Translations under genes and position numbers: made by a program
Shown: positions 1 through 6,258 of the stretch, piece after piece
How the letters are laid out: each line of letters begins with the position of its first letter
How positions within the stretch are numbered: the first letter of the stretch is position 1
Notes under the pieces: model-generated
What the model saw: only the letters and a program-made list of their open reading frames with translations
What the model was told of the DNA's origin: nothing
Databases searched by the model: none
NCBI GenBank assembly: GCA_946613735.1
Contig: CAMOFS010000107.1
Span: 1-6,258 of the forward strand
Source of the DNA: an uncultured Lachnospiraceae bacterium
GTDB taxonomy: Bacteria; Bacillota_A; Clostridia; Lachnospirales; Lachnospiraceae
Direction: 5' to 3'
Length of the DNA: 6,258 nt

Positions 1-20
1 CATTTACAGTAATCTCCTAT
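1..20 (-). other. Possible start codon and ribosome site of a further minus-strand gene
   Basis: Read on the minus strand, AGGAG (18-14) is followed after 10 bases by ATG at 3-1, exactly at the window edge. This could be the first codon of the gene after fhs in the same direction. No coding sequence beyond the ATG is visible, so the call rests on the ribosome-like site and the shared orientation only. Confidence 0.35.
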
Positions 21-85
21 AAGATCCTTCGCTTCGTTCAGGATGACTACTTTGTCATTCTGAGGGCGTAGCCCGAAGAATCTTT
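21..85. repeat. Head-to-head pair of short palindromic repeat units (REP/BIME-like) after fhs
   Basis: Unit 1 (21-47, plus orientation) and unit 2 (54-85, minus orientation) are inverted copies separated by six bases. Both follow the pattern GAT-Y-CTTCG, variable centre, TCAG-R-ATGAC. Each unit is also a hairpin. Unit 1 pairs ATCCT (24-28) with AGGAT (40-44). Unit 2 pairs ATTCT (57-61) with AGAAT (77-81), enclosing a second stem GGGC (64-67) with GCCC (71-74). The difference between the units in the outer stem is compensatory (T-A in one, C-G in the other). Unit 1 is 4 bases shorter, entirely in the inner stem and loop. The pair begins directly after the fhs stop codon. Paired inverted hairpin units resemble REP/BIME arrangements; the family here is not identified. 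It might help to end or protect fhs mRNA, but no U-tract follows. Confidence 0.8.
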
Positions 86-1756
86 TTAAAATAAACCGGT
101 AATCTTACCTTCATCATCCACATCAATATGATAGGCAGCAGGATCCTTGGGAAGTCCCGGCATAGTAAGCATATCACCAAGGATGGCTACAACAAAGCCG
201 GCTCCGGCACTGGGATAAACCTCCCTTACGGTGATGGAATAATCCGTGGGACGTCCCAGCTTCTTGGGATCGTCAGAAAGTGAATACTGGGTCTTGGCCA
301 TACATACGGGATAATCCCCCATACCAAGCTCTGTCAGGCGTTCAAGCTCACGCTTGGCTGCGGGCAGATAATTGATCTCGGAAGCACCATAGATCTCCTT
401 TGCGATCCTCTCGATCTTATCAGTAAGTGAAAGCTCATCCTCATAGAGCATCTTAAACTCACTCTTTTTATTTTCAAGGGTGTCGATCACCTCTTTTGCC
501 AGAGCCTCTCCGCCCTTGCCGCCTTTTTCAAAGACCTCGGAAAGTGCAAACCTGCAGCCCTTGTTTTTACAGAAATCCTCCACATACTTACGCTCTGCAT
601 CAGTGTCGGTAAAGAAGGAATTCAATGCCACAACAATGGGCACACCGTACTTCTGAAGGTTTTCAATATGCTTCTCAAGATTTACAATACCGGCCTTTAA
701 GGCATCCAGGTTTTCATTACCAAGGTCAGCCTTTGCAACACCACCATTGTACTTAAGAGCTCTGATGGTGGCAACCAGAACCACCGCATCAGGTGTCAAC
801 CCAGCCTTACGGCACTTGATATCAAAAAACTTCTCGGCTCCAAGATCAGCACCGAAGCCCGCCTCGGTAACACAGATATCGGAAAGCTTCATAGCTGCCT
901 TAGTAGCCCTAACTGAGTTGCAGCCGTGAGCAATATTGGCAAAAGGACCGCCGTGAACGATGGCGGGTGTATGCTCTAAGGACTGGATCATGTTGGGTGC
1001 GATGGCATCCTTTAAAAGTGCCGTCATAGCTCCAACAGCATTGAGATCCTTTGCCCTGACCGGCTTTCTGTCAAAGGTGTAGGCCACGATGATCTCACCT
1101 AAACGCTTTTTAAGATCAGCAAGATCGCTGGCCAGACAAAAGATGGCCATGATCTCAGTAGCCACAGTGATCACGAAATGATCCTCTCTAACCATGCCAT
1201 CTGACTTAGCTCCCAGTCCTATGACAATATTCCTGAGAGCACGGTCATTCATATCTTCGCAGCGCTTCATAACCACCTGTCTGGGATCGATGCCCAGCTC
1301 ATTGCCCTGCTGGATATGGTTGTCCAAAAGTGCTGCCAAAAGGTTATTGGCCGCTGTAATTGCGTGGAAATCTCCGGTAAAGTGTAGGTTCAGGTCCTCC
1401 ATGGGTACTACCTGAGCAAACCCGCCGCCTGCAGCACCGCCCTTCATGCCAAAGCAAGGCCCAAGGGATGGCTCTCTAAGTGCCAGCACAGCGTTTTTCC
1501 CCAAAAGATTAAGGGCATCTGCCAGACCGATACTGGTAGTGGTCTTGCCTTCACCCGCCGGAGTAGGATTTATCGCTGTCACTAAGACCAGCTTTCCGTC
1601 CTCTTTGGAGTCCAGCTTTTTCATCAATTTCTCAGAAAGCTTTGCTTTGTACTTGCCATAGGGCTCAATATCATCTGCGCTGATCCCTACCTTTGCCGCC
1701 ACCTCAGCAATAGGCAGCTTCACATTTTCCTGTGCGATCTCGATATCCGATTTCAT
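86..1756 (-). CDS. fhs: Formate--tetrahydrofolate ligase (10-formyl-THF synthetase)
   Basis: Cytosolic enzyme that joins formate to tetrahydrofolate using ATP, giving 10-formyl-THF for purine and formyl-Met synthesis; in acetogens it also serves the methyl branch of the Wood-Ljungdahl pathway. The protein is 556 residues, the usual length for the bacterial family. Visible motifs are the P-loop TPAGEGKT (65-72), REPSLGP (94-100), the glycine-rich family signature [11 protein letters not shown] (103-113), [10 protein letters not shown] (124-133), [17 protein letters not shown] (262-278) and the second signature [12 protein letters not shown] (328-339). The open frame reaches 9 codons further upstream to 1783, but the ATG at 1756 is preferred: GGAGG lies 5 bases before it, and the N-terminus MKSDIEIAQ then fits the family. 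From memory, the residue after the GGAAGGG stretch is usually Tyr and here is Phe, a conservative change. No lesion is seen. No convincing promoter lies in the 34 bases between the start codon and the upstream palindrome, so transcription may read through from ftsK or begin inside the palindrome. Confidence 0.98.
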
Positions 1757-1761
1757 AATTA

Positions 1762-1766
1762 CCTCC
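1762..1766 (-). promoter_or_regulatory. Ribosome binding site of fhs
   Basis: On the minus strand GGAGG is followed by TAATT and then ATG at 1756, a 5-base spacing close to ideal. This site decides the fhs start: the upstream in-frame ATG codons at 1783 and 1768 would place it inside the coding region or overlap it. Confidence 0.85.
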
Positions 1767-1790
1767 ATACATAATACATACACTCTGTGA

Positions 1791-1967
1791 GGACAGACAT
1801 GAGGCCTGAAGTATGCTTTCGAAGACCTTTAAGCGAGAGCGGCTCCGAATACACTTTGTATGTCCGTTGGCCTCACGACTTTAGGAGTGAGGACTTTACG
1901 GACATTCAACGGGATGAGGTGAAGCGGAGCGGGTCTCGAAAGTATGCTTCAGGCCTCATGTCTGTCC
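1791..1967. repeat. 177-bp nested palindrome between ftsK and fhs
   Basis: The outer arms are 1791-1827 and 1932-1967. Their outermost 21 bp (1791-1811 against 1947-1967) are perfect inverted repeats. The rest of the arms pairs except for two positions and a one-base bulge at 1823. Inside, GCTCCG (1842-1847) is complementary to CGGAGC (1925-1930). A central hairpin pairs ATGTCCGT (1860-1867) with ACGGACAT (1898-1905) and CCTCAC (1871-1876) with GTGAGG (1887-1892). The element fills most of the intergenic gap, ending 3 bp from the ftsK stop codon and beginning 34 bp from the fhs start codon. No transposase, clear target duplication or downstream T-run is present. It could be a non-autonomous mobile palindrome (MITE-like), an mRNA-stabilising or terminating structure, or a structured RNA; I do not recognise the family. 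Confidence 0.85.
1860..1905. repeat. Central hairpin of the ftsK-fhs palindrome
   Basis: An 8-bp perfect outer stem (ATGTCCGT with ACGGACAT) encloses a 6-bp perfect inner stem (CCTCAC with GTGAGG) around a 10-base loop, GACTTTAGGA. The two stems are separated by a 3-base by 5-base internal loop. It forms the apex of the larger nested structure. No U-run follows on either strand, so it is not a standard intrinsic terminator. Confidence 0.75.
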
Positions 1968-1970
1968 GGA

Positions 1971-4763
1971 TTACAACTGTTCCTGTAATTGAGAGAACTG
2001 CTCTAAGGTAAGCAGCACCTGCCTGGGCTTGGTGCCCTCCTCGGGCCCCACAACTCCGGCATCCTCAAGCTGGTCCATAATACGTGCGGCACGATTGAAC
2101 CCCACGCGGAAATACCTCTGCAGCATTCCAATGGACCCCTTTTGCTTTTCTATGATAAGCTGTGCAGCATCCGCAAAATACTCATCCCTGCCATCACCCG
2201 GCTGCTCATCAACGCTGCCTGATGCCTGAGATGAAGAGGAGGATGTCCCCTCTGCATTGGCGGTGATCTGCCTGCTTATGTCCTCATCATAGGTAGTCTC
2301 GCCCTGCCCCTTGATAAACTCGGTGACACGCGCCACCTCATCATCGGAAACAAAAGCACCCTGTACTCGAAGAGGCTTGGTAAAGCCCTGGGGATAGTAT
2401 AGCATATCGCCCTTTCCCAAAAGCTTTTCTGCACCTATCATATCTAAAATAGTGCGGCTGTCAACACCCGATGTAACAGCAAATGCTATACGTGATGGCA
2501 TGTTGGCCTTGATGAGTCCGGTGATGACATTTACAGAGGGCCTCTGGGTGGCGATGATAAGGTGGATCCCCGCCGCTCTTGCCAGCTGTGCAAGTCTGCA
2601 GATCGCCTCCTCCACTTCACTTGAGGATACCATCATCAGATCTGCCAGCTCATCTACTATCACTATGATCTGAGGCATCCTGGCAGCTGCCACCTCTGAT
2701 CCATCATTGAGCTTGATATGTCCTTTTTTGATCTTGCCGTTATAGCCCGCCATATCCCTGACACCACTCTCCGCAAATTTCTGATAGCGGTCAGTCATCT
2801 CATGGACAGCCCATTGTAATGCTCCCGATGCCTTTTTGGGATCAGTCACAACCGGGATCAAAAGATGGGGAATACCGTTATAGACAGAAAGCTCCACCAC
2901 CTTGGGGTCGATCATGATGAACTTGACCTCATCGGGCTTGGCCCTGTAGAGAATACTCATGATAATGGTATTGATACATACCGACTTACCCGAGCCGGTA
3001 CTTCCGGCTATCAAAAGATGGGGCATCTTGGCTATATCCGAGATGATAACATTTCCACCAATGTCACGACCGGCTGAAAATGCGATCTTTGACTTATTGG
3101 ATGAAAATGCTTTATCCTCAATAAGCTCCCTGATAGAGACCATGACCGTACTCTTGTTGGGAACCTCAATACCAACTGCGGACTTGCCCGGGATGGGTGC
3201 CTCGATACGGATATCTGCTGCAGCCAGATTGAGCTTGATGTCATCCGACAGATTGGTGATACGGGATACCTTGACTCCGGGCGCGGGCTCCAGCTCGTAT
3301 CTGGTGACTGTGGGTCCACAGCTTACGTCTGTAATCTTTACCTCTACACCGAAGTCGGCGAGTACCTTCTGAAGCTTGTTAGCGGTCTCCATAAGGCTTT
3401 GCTCGGTGTTGCCGTTTTTATTGCCCTTTGGCAGATCCAAAAGATCCGTGGAAGGAAGGATGTAAGGCTTTTCGGGTGCCTTTTTCTCCTCTATCTCCTT
3501 GGAGATGTCCTCGGCTGATACCGGTGCTACCTCTTCCTTGGGCTTGGGCTCCGACACGGCTGATACAGGCTCAGGGATCACAGGCTCGGGCTCAGGCTCA
3601 GGGATCACAGGCTCAGGGATCACAGGCTCAGGCTCCGGCTCATATACAGGTTCCGGCTCATATGCCGGTATAGAGTCTGGTATTGGCTCCGGCTCAGGGG
3701 ATGAAAGAGATTCTTCGGGCTGTGCCCTCAGAATGACATTGATGTTTTGATCATCAAAACCTGCGGCATCCGACGTGGTCTCAAGCACCGATGATGACGC
3801 TGTATCAGAGGTAAGTGATACTCGGTTAACTGTCTCTATCTCACGATTGGCGTTATACATGTTGATGTGGATCTCGTTAACCTCATCCGAGGGGGAATTG
3901 TCAGTATTGATCGTAGTATCAGGCAGAGGCTCCTTTTGAGCTTTAGACTTTTCCTCCGGTCCATCATCAGCCTTCTCTTCAGCCCGGGCCTTAGCCCTTT
4001 CTTCCCTTTCGATAGCAAGCTGTGTCAGTCGCTCTTTACTTGCCTGCCGCCTTTCCTCTCTTATCCTTTCACGCTTTGCACTGTCAGCAGCATAACGCTG
4101 ACCCTTTTTGTGAAGGTATAAAAAGGTCTTGGTCTCGGTTATTAGCACTAGTGATATGATCATAAGTATCACATCTATGACATAGGCACCCACTATCCCA
4201 AAAGCCTTTACCAAAACAAGGGCGATGGCACCGCCGAAAAGGCCGCCTCCCAGCTTGTCATCATAGCCTATATGAAAGGCCGGGATAGGTCCGATGGCAT
4301 TGGACTTGTGGATGAAAAGCTCAATAAAGGTTAGCAGGAACAAAAGTAAGGAAAGCGCCGATAAAAGCTTTGCCGTAGCAATGGTATTTTTTATATTGGA
4401 TACCATAAAAAATGTGCCGGCAAGGATCATAAAAGGAAATACATATGCCAGCACACCAAAAAGCCCAAAGAAAAAGCGACAGATCATATCTCCAACTGTG
4501 CCACCAAAGCCGAAATTGCCGATGCAAAGCAGGATGGAAACCAGAAGTGATATCCACAGAAAAACCTCCAGCTGCATCCTGGTAGGCTCAAAGGACTCCC
4601 TCTCTGCCACTTTTTTTACTTCAGCCTTAGATGACTTCTTTGCCGTATTATCTGCCCTTTTATTCGCACTTGACGAGCCGGAGGTCTTTCTCCGGCTCGT
4701 CGTAGTGTTTTTGCTCTTAGTATTCGATTTTGTATTTTTCTTCGCAGACTTACTTGCTGCCAT
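1971..4763 (-). CDS. ftsK: DNA translocase FtsK/SpoIIIE
   Basis: Membrane-anchored hexameric motor that pumps chromosomal DNA through the closing septum (FtsK) or into the forespore (SpoIIIE); sequence alone does not separate these roles. 930 residues. A Lys/Ser/Thr-rich cytoplasmic tail (1-60) precedes hydrophobic segments at about 66-82, 95-121, 133-151 and 172-209, enough for four or five membrane passes. A charged, coiled-coil-like stretch (about 218-266) and a long low-complexity linker (about 267-430) follow, with a Pro-Glu repeat tract at 356-400. The motor carries Walker A GSTGSGKS (587-594), Walker B IIVIVDE (699-705) and ATQRPSVNVITG (738-749). The C-terminal winged-helix gamma domain (about 860-925), which reads DNA orientation sequences in this family, contains YFRVGFNRAARIMDQLE (884-900). 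All key motifs look intact. The start at 4763 lies 22 bases after the glgA stop with a weak AGG-type ribosome site; the next in-frame Met (63) would remove the N-terminal tail. Oddity: residues 343-353 are encoded by a copy of the palindromic repeat also found after fhs. Confidence 0.97.
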   Translation of the reverse strand: MAASKSAKKNTKSNTKSKNTTTSRRKTSGSSSANKRADNTAKKSSKAEVKKVAERESFEPTRMQLEVFLWISLLVSILLCIGNFGFGGTVGDMICRFFFGLFGVLAYVFPFMILAGTFFMVSNIKNTIATAKLLSALSLLLFLLTFIELFIHKSNAIGPIPAFHIGYDDKLGGGLFGGAIALVLVKAFGIVGAYVIDVILMIISLVLITETKTFLYLHKKGQRYAADSAKRERIREERRQASKERLTQLAIEREERAKARAEEKADDGPEEKSKAQKEPLPDTTINTDNSPSDEVNEIHINMYNANREIETVNRVSLTSDTASSSVLETTSDAAGFDDQNINVILRAQPEESLSSPEPEPIPDSIPAYEPEPVYEPEPEPVIPEPVIPEPEPEPVIPEPVSAVSEPKPKEEVAPVSAEDISKEIEEKKAPEKPYILPSTDLLDLPKGNKNGNTEQSLMETANKLQKVLADFGVEVKITDVSCGPTVTRYELEPAPGVKVSRITNLSDDIKLNLAAADIRIEAPIPGKSAVGIEVPNKSTVMVSIRELIEDKAFSSNKSKIAFSAGRDIGGNVIISDIAKMPHLLIAGSTGSGKSVCINTIIMSILYRAKPDEVKFIMIDPKVVELSVYNGIPHLLIPVVTDPKKASGALQWAVHEMTDRYQKFAESGVRDMAGYNGKIKKGHIKLNDGSEVAAARMPQIIVIVDELADLMMVSSSEVEEAICRLAQLARAAGIHLIIATQRPSVNVITGLIKANMPSRIAFAVTSGVDSRTILDMIGAEKLLGKGDMLYYPQGFTKPLRVQGAFVSDDEVARVTEFIKGQGETTYDEDISRQITANAEGTSSSSSQASGSVDEQPGDGRDEYFADAAQLIIEKQKGSIGMLQRYFRVGFNRAARIMDQLEDAGVVGPEEGTKPRQVLLTLEQFSQLQEQL
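3564..3698 (-). repeat. Pro-Glu repeat tract in the FtsK linker
   Basis: Degenerate tandem repeats encode residues 356-400 of FtsK, rich in PEPEP, PEPVI and YEPEP units. On the plus strand the 15-mer CAGGCTCAGGGATCA occurs three times without change, at 3566-3580, 3593-3607 and 3608-3622, the last two directly in tandem. Unit lengths are multiples of three, so gain or loss of copies keeps the frame. Such linkers between the membrane domain and motor of FtsK are known to vary in length and composition. Confidence 0.85.
3706..3737 (+). repeat. Copy of the palindromic repeat unit inside ftsK
   Basis: This stretch matches the reverse complement of 54-85 at 29 of 32 positions. Two of the three differences fall in the 3-base hairpin loop (TAC becomes TGT) and the third in the edge flank. 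Both stems are kept exactly: ATTCT with AGAAT, and GGGC with GCCC. It lies within the ftsK reading frame and encodes, on the opposite strand, residues 343-353 (VILRAQPEESL) of the low-complexity linker, just before the Pro-Glu tract. Its length fits the frame without disruption. Confidence 0.85.
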
Positions 4764-4773
4764 ATAAAAATTA

Positions 4774-4780
4774 CCTACCT
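4774..4780 (-). promoter_or_regulatory. Weak ribosome binding site of ftsK
   Basis: AGGTAGG on the minus strand, 10 bases before the ftsK ATG at 4763 and lying entirely in the 22-base gap after the glgA stop. It matches the Shine-Dalgarno consensus less well than the fhs and glgA sites, which fits modest translation or coupling to glgA. No better start is available before Met63. Confidence 0.45.
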
Positions 4781-4785
4781 AAAGA

Positions 4786-6246
4786 TTATGTCTCGTCTCC
4801 AATCAGATACTTGTAGAGGCCCTCATACTTGAACTTGGATGCAGACCAGGAGTAGTCCTTCTGCATGCCGCGCTCCACCATCTTGTTCCACTTGGTACGG
4901 AGTACGAAGTAGATGTACTTGGAATAGTTGATGGTGTTAAGAAGCTCGTCCCCATTGTAGTTGGAGAATGAGAAGCCGTCGCCCACATTCTCATATTCGT
5001 TGAAGGGAATAACTGTATCCTTGAGGCCGCCGGTCTCACGTACAATGGGCACTGTGCCATATCTGAATGAGATCATCTGTGTCAGTCCGCAGGGTTCAAA
5101 TCTGGAAGGAACCAAAAATGCATCCGAAGCCGCATACAGCTTCCTGGCCAGGTCATCGGAATAGCAGATGTTGGCTGATACCCTGTCGGGATACTTCCAT
5201 GCATAGTGCCTGAACATATTCTCATAACGGCTCTCACCGGTACCAATGACTACAAGCTGGGTATTGTCATCCACGATACCCTCCATGCAGTAATTGATCA
5301 GGTCAAGACCCTTTTGATCAGTAAGGCGGCTGACAAGACCAATCATATACTTTTTCGGATCCACCGCCAGATCCAGATCCTCCTGAAGTCTGGTCTTGTT
5401 GGTCTTTTTGTTCTGACGGAAATTGTTGACACCGTACTGCTTGTAGACACTCATATCAGTCTGGGGATCATAGGTGATATAGTCTATGCCATTAAGGATA
5501 CCCTGCATATCAAAATGCCTGGATCCTAAAAGGCCATCCAGTCCCTCACCATAGTAAGGAGTCTGGATCTCATCCGCATAAGTGGGTGAAACCGTGGTAA
5601 TGTAGTCAGCATATACCAGTCCGCCCTTTAACATATTACCTGTCTTATTGCACTCCAGCTTGTCGGGAGTGAATAGATCCATAGGCAGTCCCGACAGTCC
5701 CTGAAGGGTCTTCACATCCCATACACCCTGGAACTTGAGATTGTGGATGGTCATGATGGACTTGATGCCCCAGAAGAAAGGATTGGCCTGGAACTCAGTC
5801 TTGAGGTAAACAGGTATAAGACCTGTCTGCCAGTCATGACAGTGGATAAGATCAGGCTTGAAATCGATGACCGGGAGCATGGAAAGCACTGCCTTGTCGA
5901 AGAAGGTGAACTTTTCCATGTCGTATCTGGTATCACCGTAGGGATAAAAGCATTCAAAGTACTCCAGGTTGTCAATGAAGTAATAGGTGATACCGAAGTA
6001 CTCATACTCCATGATACCTACATATTTTTCTCCGATATAAGGACCACAGCCCATATTGAAGTTTGCAACAAACTTGAAGTTGTCGCGGAACTGAGGAGGT
6101 ATACAGGTGTAGTTGGGAAGTACTACCCTGATGTCCCAATCTTCCTTGAAAAACTCCTTGGGAAGCGCGCCTACAACATCTGCAAGACCCCCTGTCTTGA
6201 CAAAAGGAACGCATTCACTTGCTGCAAACAAAATTTTCTTTTTCAT
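4786..6246 (-). CDS. glgA: Glycogen synthase (ADP-glucose type, GT5)
   Basis: Transfers glucose from ADP-glucose to the non-reducing end of a growing alpha-1,4-glucan; cytosolic, glycogen storage. The 486 residues match the usual bacterial length of about 475-490. The N-terminal Rossmann half holds KTGGLADV (17-24), the ADP-glucose-binding motif, HCHDWQTG (135-142) and IHNLKFQG (168-175). The C-terminal half holds SRLTDQKG (306-313), with Arg307 and Lys312 at the positions of the nucleotide-sugar phosphate ligands. It also holds RFEPCGLTQ, with Glu384 matching the catalytic Glu of the E. coli enzyme, and the second glycine loop ETGGL (404-408). All expected active-site residues are present. 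The ATG at 6246 follows a purine-rich AGAGGGGG with 4 bases between, and the N-terminus MKKKILFAASE is typical of the family. No other glg gene is visible, but only 12 bases lie upstream, so the promoter and any glgC or glgB partners would be outside the window. It is probably cotranscribed with ftsK. Confidence 0.97.
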   Translation of the reverse strand: MKKKILFAASECVPFVKTGGLADVVGALPKEFFKEDWDIRVVLPNYTCIPPQFRDNFKFVANFNMGCGPYIGEKYVGIMEYEYFGITYYFIDNLEYFECFYPYGDTRYDMEKFTFFDKAVLSMLPVIDFKPDLIHCHDWQTGLIPVYLKTEFQANPFFWGIKSIMTIHNLKFQGVWDVKTLQGLSGLPMDLFTPDKLECNKTGNMLKGGLVYADYITTVSPTYADEIQTPYYGEGLDGLLGSRHFDMQGILNGIDYITYDPQTDMSVYKQYGVNNFRQNKKTNKTRLQEDLDLAVDPKKYMIGLVSRLTDQKGLDLINYCMEGIVDDNTQLVVIGTGESRYENMFRHYAWKYPDRVSANICYSDDLARKLYAASDAFLVPSRFEPCGLTQMISFRYGTVPIVRETGGLKDTVIPFNEYENVGDGFSFSNYNGDELLNTINYSKYIYFVLRTKWNKMVERGMQKDYSWSASKFKYEGLYKYLIGDET

Positions 6247-6250
6247 AGTT

Positions 6251-6258
6251 CCCCCTCT
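6251..6258 (-). promoter_or_regulatory. Ribosome binding site of glgA
   Basis: AGAGGGGG on the minus strand, 4 bases before the ATG at 6246. It is cut by the window edge, so its full extent is not known. It supports the chosen glgA start. Confidence 0.7.

Follow-up and report, generated by a model that had tools for sequence, protein, structure and literature searches.

A palindromic segment within ftsK as a probable copy of a dispersed REP-like element in a Lachnospiraceae lineage

A short hairpin-forming sequence that lies just beyond one gene and recurs, almost unchanged, within the coding region of another raises the question of how the second copy came to be there and what it now represents. 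Such a pair occurs in the 6,258-nucleotide stretch of DNA analysed here (the window; contig CAMOFS010000107.1, positions 1 to 6,258, assembly GCA_946613735.1, from an uncultured Lachnospiraceae bacterium), where one copy lies beside fhs and the other inside ftsK. An earlier note, made from the sequence alone, had proposed that the repeated unit is a mobile structured element translated in a disordered linker of FtsK. Our analysis supports this interpretation, with corrections. The ftsK segment is probably a copy of a palindromic element dispersed in this Lachnospiraceae lineage, similar to repetitive extragenic palindromic (REP) sequences, that rarely survives as a linker peptide. The features on which the argument turns are as follows.

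1971-4763, minus strand: ftsK, encoding a DNA translocase of 930 amino acids, the host gene of the embedded copy
3459-3968, minus strand: low-complexity, probably disordered FtsK linker (approximately residues 266-435), which holds the embedded copy
3709-3737, minus strand: in-frame palindromic unit within ftsK, coding for VILRAQPEES (residues 343-352)
86-1783, minus strand: fhs, encoding formate-tetrahydrofolate ligase, with a head-to-head dimer of units just 3' of the gene
54-82, plus strand: intergenic copy of the ftsK-embedded unit, its 3' end 3 bases from the fhs stop codon
23-47, minus strand: third and shorter copy, with a stem of the C-G class, GTCATCCTGAACGAAGCGAAGGATC, which pairs with 54-82 as a REPIN-like dimer

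The 29-base unit, GTCATTCTGAGGGCGTAGCCCGAAGAATC, is present at 54-82 on the plus strand and, with two mismatches, at 3709-3737 on the minus strand. When positions 54-85 are compared with 3706-3737, 29 of 32 bases match, exactly the figure given in the earlier note; two of the differences fall in the three-base loop (GTA versus ACA) and one in the tail, and both stem arms are identical. Positions 53-87 can pair with 3704-3738 over 35 nucleotides with 91% complementarity, and no match to the 29-base unit arose in 200 dinucleotide shuffles of the window. On the ftsK coding strand the unit reads GTC ATT CTG AGG GCA CAG CCC GAA GAA TC, which places VILRAQPEES between a 4TM match (residues 86-214) and the FtsK alpha domain (436-536). 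The predicted local distance difference test score (pLDDT) is below 50 across residues 266-452; the structural model is poor (mean pLDDT 48.9), and it is no more than consistent with disorder of the linker. Single copies of the unit fold with modest strength as single-stranded DNA: the intergenic copy (54-88) yields a z-score of -2.71 and the ftsK copy -1.77, with 15 of 200 shuffles folding equally well. The third, diverged copy stands head to head with 54-82 across a 6-base gap, and the dimer region (18-95) folds with a z-score of -3.62. A search of the window against Rfam returned no families at gathering thresholds.

Two relatives of the window's bacterium carry many copies of this unit. 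A search of genome contigs with FtsK as the query provided 80 loci, from which 14 genomes were picked and searched with the pattern GTCATTCTGAG-N(4-14)-CGAAGAATC, using the reversed pattern as a control. The relatives' genomes are drafts (those of the repeat-rich G001 and G002 comprise about 1.3 and 2.7 Mb), and the copy number of the window's own genome is inferred from them rather than counted. G001, the genome of locus L004, whose FtsK is 94% identical in its best segment, holds 66 pattern matches, and G002, the genome of locus L001, whose FtsK is 78% identical, holds 128; the other 12 genomes have none, and the reversed pattern is absent from all 14. The note had held that a unit with no copies beyond those in the window would count against mobility, and the dozens of copies in the two relatives, together with the shuffles, instead favour a mobile structured element over chance. 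Two of the copies listed for G002 have exactly the form seen in ftsK.

Beyond these relatives, the distribution of the repeat family is patchy, with a few dense genomes and the rest of those searched thin or empty. Among 145 genomes around G002, five match the pattern (G002 with 128 copies, G068 with 107, G001 with 66, G041 with 2 and G145 with 1), and a draw of 398 genomes from the phylum yielded 18 with matches, all of which except G002 have 10 copies or fewer. In a collection of viral contigs, 33 stretches contain the commonest form of the unit and one contains the GGGC/GCCC form.

The copies share a consistent anatomy: a TGTC tag, a stem start of ATTC/GAAT or ATCC/GGAT, a tandem G.A/A.G mismatch, and then a variable inner stem, which in the 29-base form is closed by a three-base loop. 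The counts that follow are of copies related by descent and hence are not independent events. The outer variable stem pair of the 221 copies found in stretches of G001 and G002 is T-A in 152, C-G in 66 and something else in 3; GTC is preceded by T in 210 copies tallied, and the two bases after GAATC/GGATC are T in 197 and 185 copies tallied, those within 10 bases of a stretch end having been dropped. Among 26 distinct 29-mers, A-T pairs occupy the first and second stem positions in 21 and 26, the two halves of the tandem mismatch are nearly constant (24 and 25), and the stem is broken at positions 9-23 and 10-22, where standard pairs occur in only 1 and 0. Inner stems vary (GGGC/GCCC, GGAC/GTCC, GGCC/GGCC and others) and are mostly paired. 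Covariation is strong at the outer T-A/C-G pair, whereas pairing of the inner stem gives weak support when the 29-base class is taken by itself (full pairing in 16 of 18, with 0.76 expected from column shuffles). Copies also tend to face one another: adjacent copies no more than 150 bases apart, taken from 254 loosely matched ones, stand head to head in 69 cases, tail to tail in 10 and head to tail in 9.

The earlier note recommended that copies inside and outside genes be counted, and in this count most copies lie outside genes. In 110 stretches surrounding 150 listed exact copies, with genes called by a home-made hexamer score, 119 copies are intergenic, 19 overlap gene ends and 12 lie inside called open reading frames (ORFs), although approximately 89% of the DNA in these stretches is called coding. 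With copies so predominantly extragenic, the embedded ones look like occasional survivors and not like the usual fate of the element. Copies with called genes beside them lie a median of 31 bases from the closest gene 3' end, 59 of 118 being within 30. No preference for gene orientation is visible, as 113 unidirectional, 5 convergent and 6 divergent pairs flank the copies versus 260, 11 and 9 among all neighbouring pairs of called genes in these loci. In eight copies (L141, L155, L169, L180, L187, L209, L239 and L241; 8 of the 19 overlaps) the unit supplies the stop codon of the gene, which creates C-termini such as DSSLRSE.

Eight of the 12 ORF-internal copies begin within the first 41 residues (L136, L138, L142, L148, L153, L156, L186 and L234), and these predicted N-termini, for example CHSERSEES, are probably over-extended starts. 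The remaining four (L147, L167, L175 and L233) are truly internal, and allowing up to two mismatches reveals more (L146, L147, L167, L179 and L180). Internal copies use three different reading frames, and their host proteins are unrelated. We considered whether the unit has been selected for translatability and rejected this idea: four of its six frames are open, whereas 3.9 of six are expected by chance (by hand arithmetic), because each frame of 29 bases holds about nine full codons and approximately 0.65 of frames would then lack a stop.

Comparisons with homologues are most informative for two proteins. In a MurF-like ligase, the segment occurs at one site in G002 (P0121), in P0122 and P0123 and in G001, its versions extending from a short ILRFAQ to a long one with two units, and the G002 copy being degraded; the ligases of G017, G015 and G003 lack it. 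A motif scan of 120 listed homologues found the segment in P0121, P0122 and P0123 and in none of the other 117. The corresponding loop spans 51, 49 and 75 residues in these three proteins, respectively, and 46 in P0124, and the model of P0123 shows the insert as a loop of low confidence lying between strands 352-356 and 391-398. In a glycosyltransferase of G002, EEEKILRFAQNDKGSAQNDKTYD stands opposite ETDKTHEKSYD of the nearest homologue (G017, 58% identical), making the protein 12 residues longer; three further homologues, one with an internal stop codon, are 9 to 12 residues shorter there, and a paralogue in G002 (56%) falls outside the alignment. The MurF-like ligase and the glycosyltransferase are unrelated proteins that carry the unit in frame where homologues lack it. 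Additional in-frame copies were found in a hybrid kinase, within a variable linker between its receiver and Hpt domains, in the N-terminal tail of GrpE (two copies in G001, none in G002) and in a cysteine desulfurase, at the same site in G002 (L179) and G001 (L270).

The viral contig collection also contains coding copies, with 9 of 51 exact copies in 34 stretches lying inside called ORFs. One of these contigs encodes VILRAQPEES itself (L135:11313-11341) within a ParB-like ORF whose Pfam match is under the curated cut-off. Units at L102:563-587 and L103:11939-12015 lie in ORFs with no Pfam match.

For FtsK, the note predicted that conservation of the segment in distant genera would argue against insertion. 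The unit peptide is present in only 2 of 120 listed FtsK homologues: P0001, the window's own protein, and P0002, which is 95% identical and carries the form VILRAKPEES. The FtsK proteins of G001 and G002 lack it, and a search with the linker alone found P0001, P0002 and P0004, of which P0004 has no unit. Intergenic DNA also bears on the mobility of the copies. Seven spacers orthologous between G001 and G002 were aligned: in five, a unit or dimer is present in one genome and absent from the other, and the remaining two are empty in both. Of the one-sided cases, that in which L181 (G002) contains a head-to-head dimer and L140 is empty reads as a clean filled and empty pair, with the insertion in a T-rich stretch and no unambiguous target-site duplication; the remaining one-sided spacers are messy.

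Several observations weigh against reading the ftsK segment as an inserted copy of a mobile repeat. The note held that orthologues lacking exactly the unit residues would support insertion, and there are none: the indel-rich linker blurs any exact empty site. By our reading of the alignment, the window's FtsK is about 23 residues longer than that of G001 between anchors, of which about 10 are unit, and the G002 linker is long yet has no unit. Insertion at ftsK is thus a conclusion drawn from the behaviour of the repeat family elsewhere, given that no clean junction is visible at this site. Elsewhere, too, the evidence is uneven. The MurF loop span varies between 46 and 94 in the 100 of 120 homologues in which it can be measured, 65 of them at 46, and it reaches 94 in proteins without the motif, such that length alone proves little. 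In the kinase linker and the GrpE tail, variability obscures any clean insertion, and the cysteine desulfurase copy replaces a stretch of equal length. The third repeat-rich genome, G068, has no truly internal copy among the 22 exact copies examined, 21 of which are intergenic and one near an N terminus. Finally, neither a target-site duplication nor a mobilising enzyme has been identified.

Some of these observations would fit another mode of spread, in which the unit is mainly copied over existing sequence of equal length, by a process akin to gene conversion or template switching, rather than inserted. The cysteine desulfurase, whose unit-bearing form is no longer at the site than most homologues without the unit, and the long unit-free linker of the G002 FtsK are both what overwriting would produce. 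However, the glycosyltransferase and the MurF-like ligase are longer than their nearest homologues, and the spacer pair L181/L140 differs by the presence of a whole dimer. We therefore regard overwriting as unlikely to be the principal route.

It is improbable that embedded copies are domesticated, such that the peptide, or a hairpin in the mRNA or DNA, is selected for a role in regulating expression, folding or binding. In its favour, more than one lineage retains a copy at a given site (the MurF-like ligase in four sequences, the cysteine desulfurase in G001 and G002, FtsK in P0001 and P0002), and the ftsK copy has the same stem arms as 54-82. Against it stand the use of three frames in unrelated host proteins and the differing MurF spans among carriers, one of them with a degraded copy, which suit neutrality and tolerated debris better. 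The last alternative, chance or convergent coding similarity within a low-complexity linker, gains some appeal from the repeat families D1 and D2 found there, but it has a negligible probability and is refuted by a 29-base match with two mismatches that no shuffle reproduced and by the two exact copies of the ftsK form in G002.

If the ftsK segment is a copy of a dispersed element, its history might have unfolded as follows. Copies would be inserted by an activity acting in trans, other than a recognisable PF01797 (RAYT) gene of the two repeat-rich relatives, and insertions into genes would mostly be purged. The survivors would be those whose landing place is a linker, loop or tail and whose frame is one of the four that the unit leaves free of stops; their partner units would then decay. 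The ftsK copy probably arrived before the window species and that of P0002 separated, and after both had split from G001 and G002, and it would now be a neutral linker peptide.

A RAYT-driven REPIN system was considered and rejected, in that PF01797 (Y1_Tnp, RAYT) has no match in G001 or G002 up to an E value of 10, a search that did not extend to other transposase families. As both genomes are drafts, a missing RAYT gene is possible and the absence is not final. The same family was matched in five of seven other genomes tested, and the repeat-rich G068 has two partial matches. GTAG REPs and REPINs with RAYT resemble the present elements in being paired, inverted short palindromes, many of them near gene 3' ends, and differ from them in tag (GTAG rather than TGTC) and in their RAYT gene, for which G001 and G002 gave no match. 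The unit may also resemble the dRS3 repeats of Neisseria and the repeats of Rickettsia.

The closest described parallel is with the CGTC REPs. As set out in the main text of Di Nocera et al. 2013 (PMC3733652), these carry a CGTC, TGTC or CCTC tag, A-T pairs at the first stem positions, stems of 8-9 bp, loops of 4-5 bases and mostly CCA tails; they form mostly head-to-head dimers, have no dedicated transposase, and are mostly intergenic with some intragenic copies. The unit shares the TGTC variant of the tag, the A-T pairs at the first two stem positions, the predominance of head-to-head dimers and the mainly intergenic location with some copies in genes. However, its stem is broken by the tandem G.A/A.G mismatch rather than uninterrupted, its loop in the 29-base form has three bases, and its tail is CTT. 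On account of these stem, loop and tail features we do not file it among the four CGTC families described there, but regard it as a related or convergent family that behaves like CGTC REPs. The words 'Firmicutes' and 'Clostridi' do not occur in the main text of that paper, and the unit described here is found in Bacillota.

Palindromes embedded in proteins have been described in Rickettsia and, through REP surveys, in other phyla, according to the same text (PMC3733652), in which the Rickettsia palindromic elements (RPEs) RPE-4 and RPE-6 are CGTC-4 and CGTC-1, short palindromes in unrelated protein genes, including genes for DNA synthesis and repair. The earlier note had compared the ftsK segment with RPEs 'by behaviour only'. 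The comparison holds in that both are short palindromic repeats embedded in unrelated protein genes. It may nevertheless understate the relationship, since RPE-4 and RPE-6 are placed in a superfamily whose tag, first stem positions and head-to-head pairing the unit shares, even though stem, loop and tail differ. RPEs are protein-embedded, whereas truly internal copies in G001 and G002 are few (4 of 150 exact copies).

The window also contains a further gene and a second palindrome.

4786-6246, minus strand: starch-synthase-like gene

The spacer between ftsK and fhs (1785-1972) holds the second, longer palindrome, with 32-nucleotide inverted arms (94%) flanking 113 nucleotides and a predicted RNA fold of -90.3 kcal/mol (z-score -12.8). 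The inner portion of this palindrome has 73-76% similarity to sites in L174 and L216 (G002) and L298 (G016), and the orthologous spacer of L004 differs from that of the window.

Palindromes within proteins are a known phenomenon; what appears new, as far as the searches reached, is the lineage, the variant of the repeat and the set of proteins that host it. Literature searches with unit and peptide sequences returned no paper, shorter fragments matched papers with unrelated titles, and no title among those listed by topic names this repeat in Lachnospiraceae, which is not proof that no description has been published. A broader proposal, possible but doubtful at present, is that a Bacillota REP family spreading by a non-RAYT activity repeatedly supplies proteins with new sequence. 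In that case VILRAQPEES would have entered both this lineage's FtsK and the ParB-like ORF of the viral collection, by apparently separate insertions, and embedded copies would be kept at the same core-protein sites in more than one lineage.

Our findings add a Lachnospiraceae lineage to those with protein-embedded palindromes, including cases in the core proteins FtsK, MurF-like ligase, GrpE and cysteine desulfurase. They suggest that the repeat is the origin of peptides such as VILRAQPEES, HSERSEES, ILRFAQND and VILSEAKN in predicted proteins, and that it probably accounts for several artefactual N-termini among those predicted here. With a repeat family that has no RAYT-type gene found in two repeat-rich genomes, and with these core-protein cases at hand, free-living bacteria of the gut and rumen offer a setting in which to ask what mobilises such repeats and how they turn into coding sequence.

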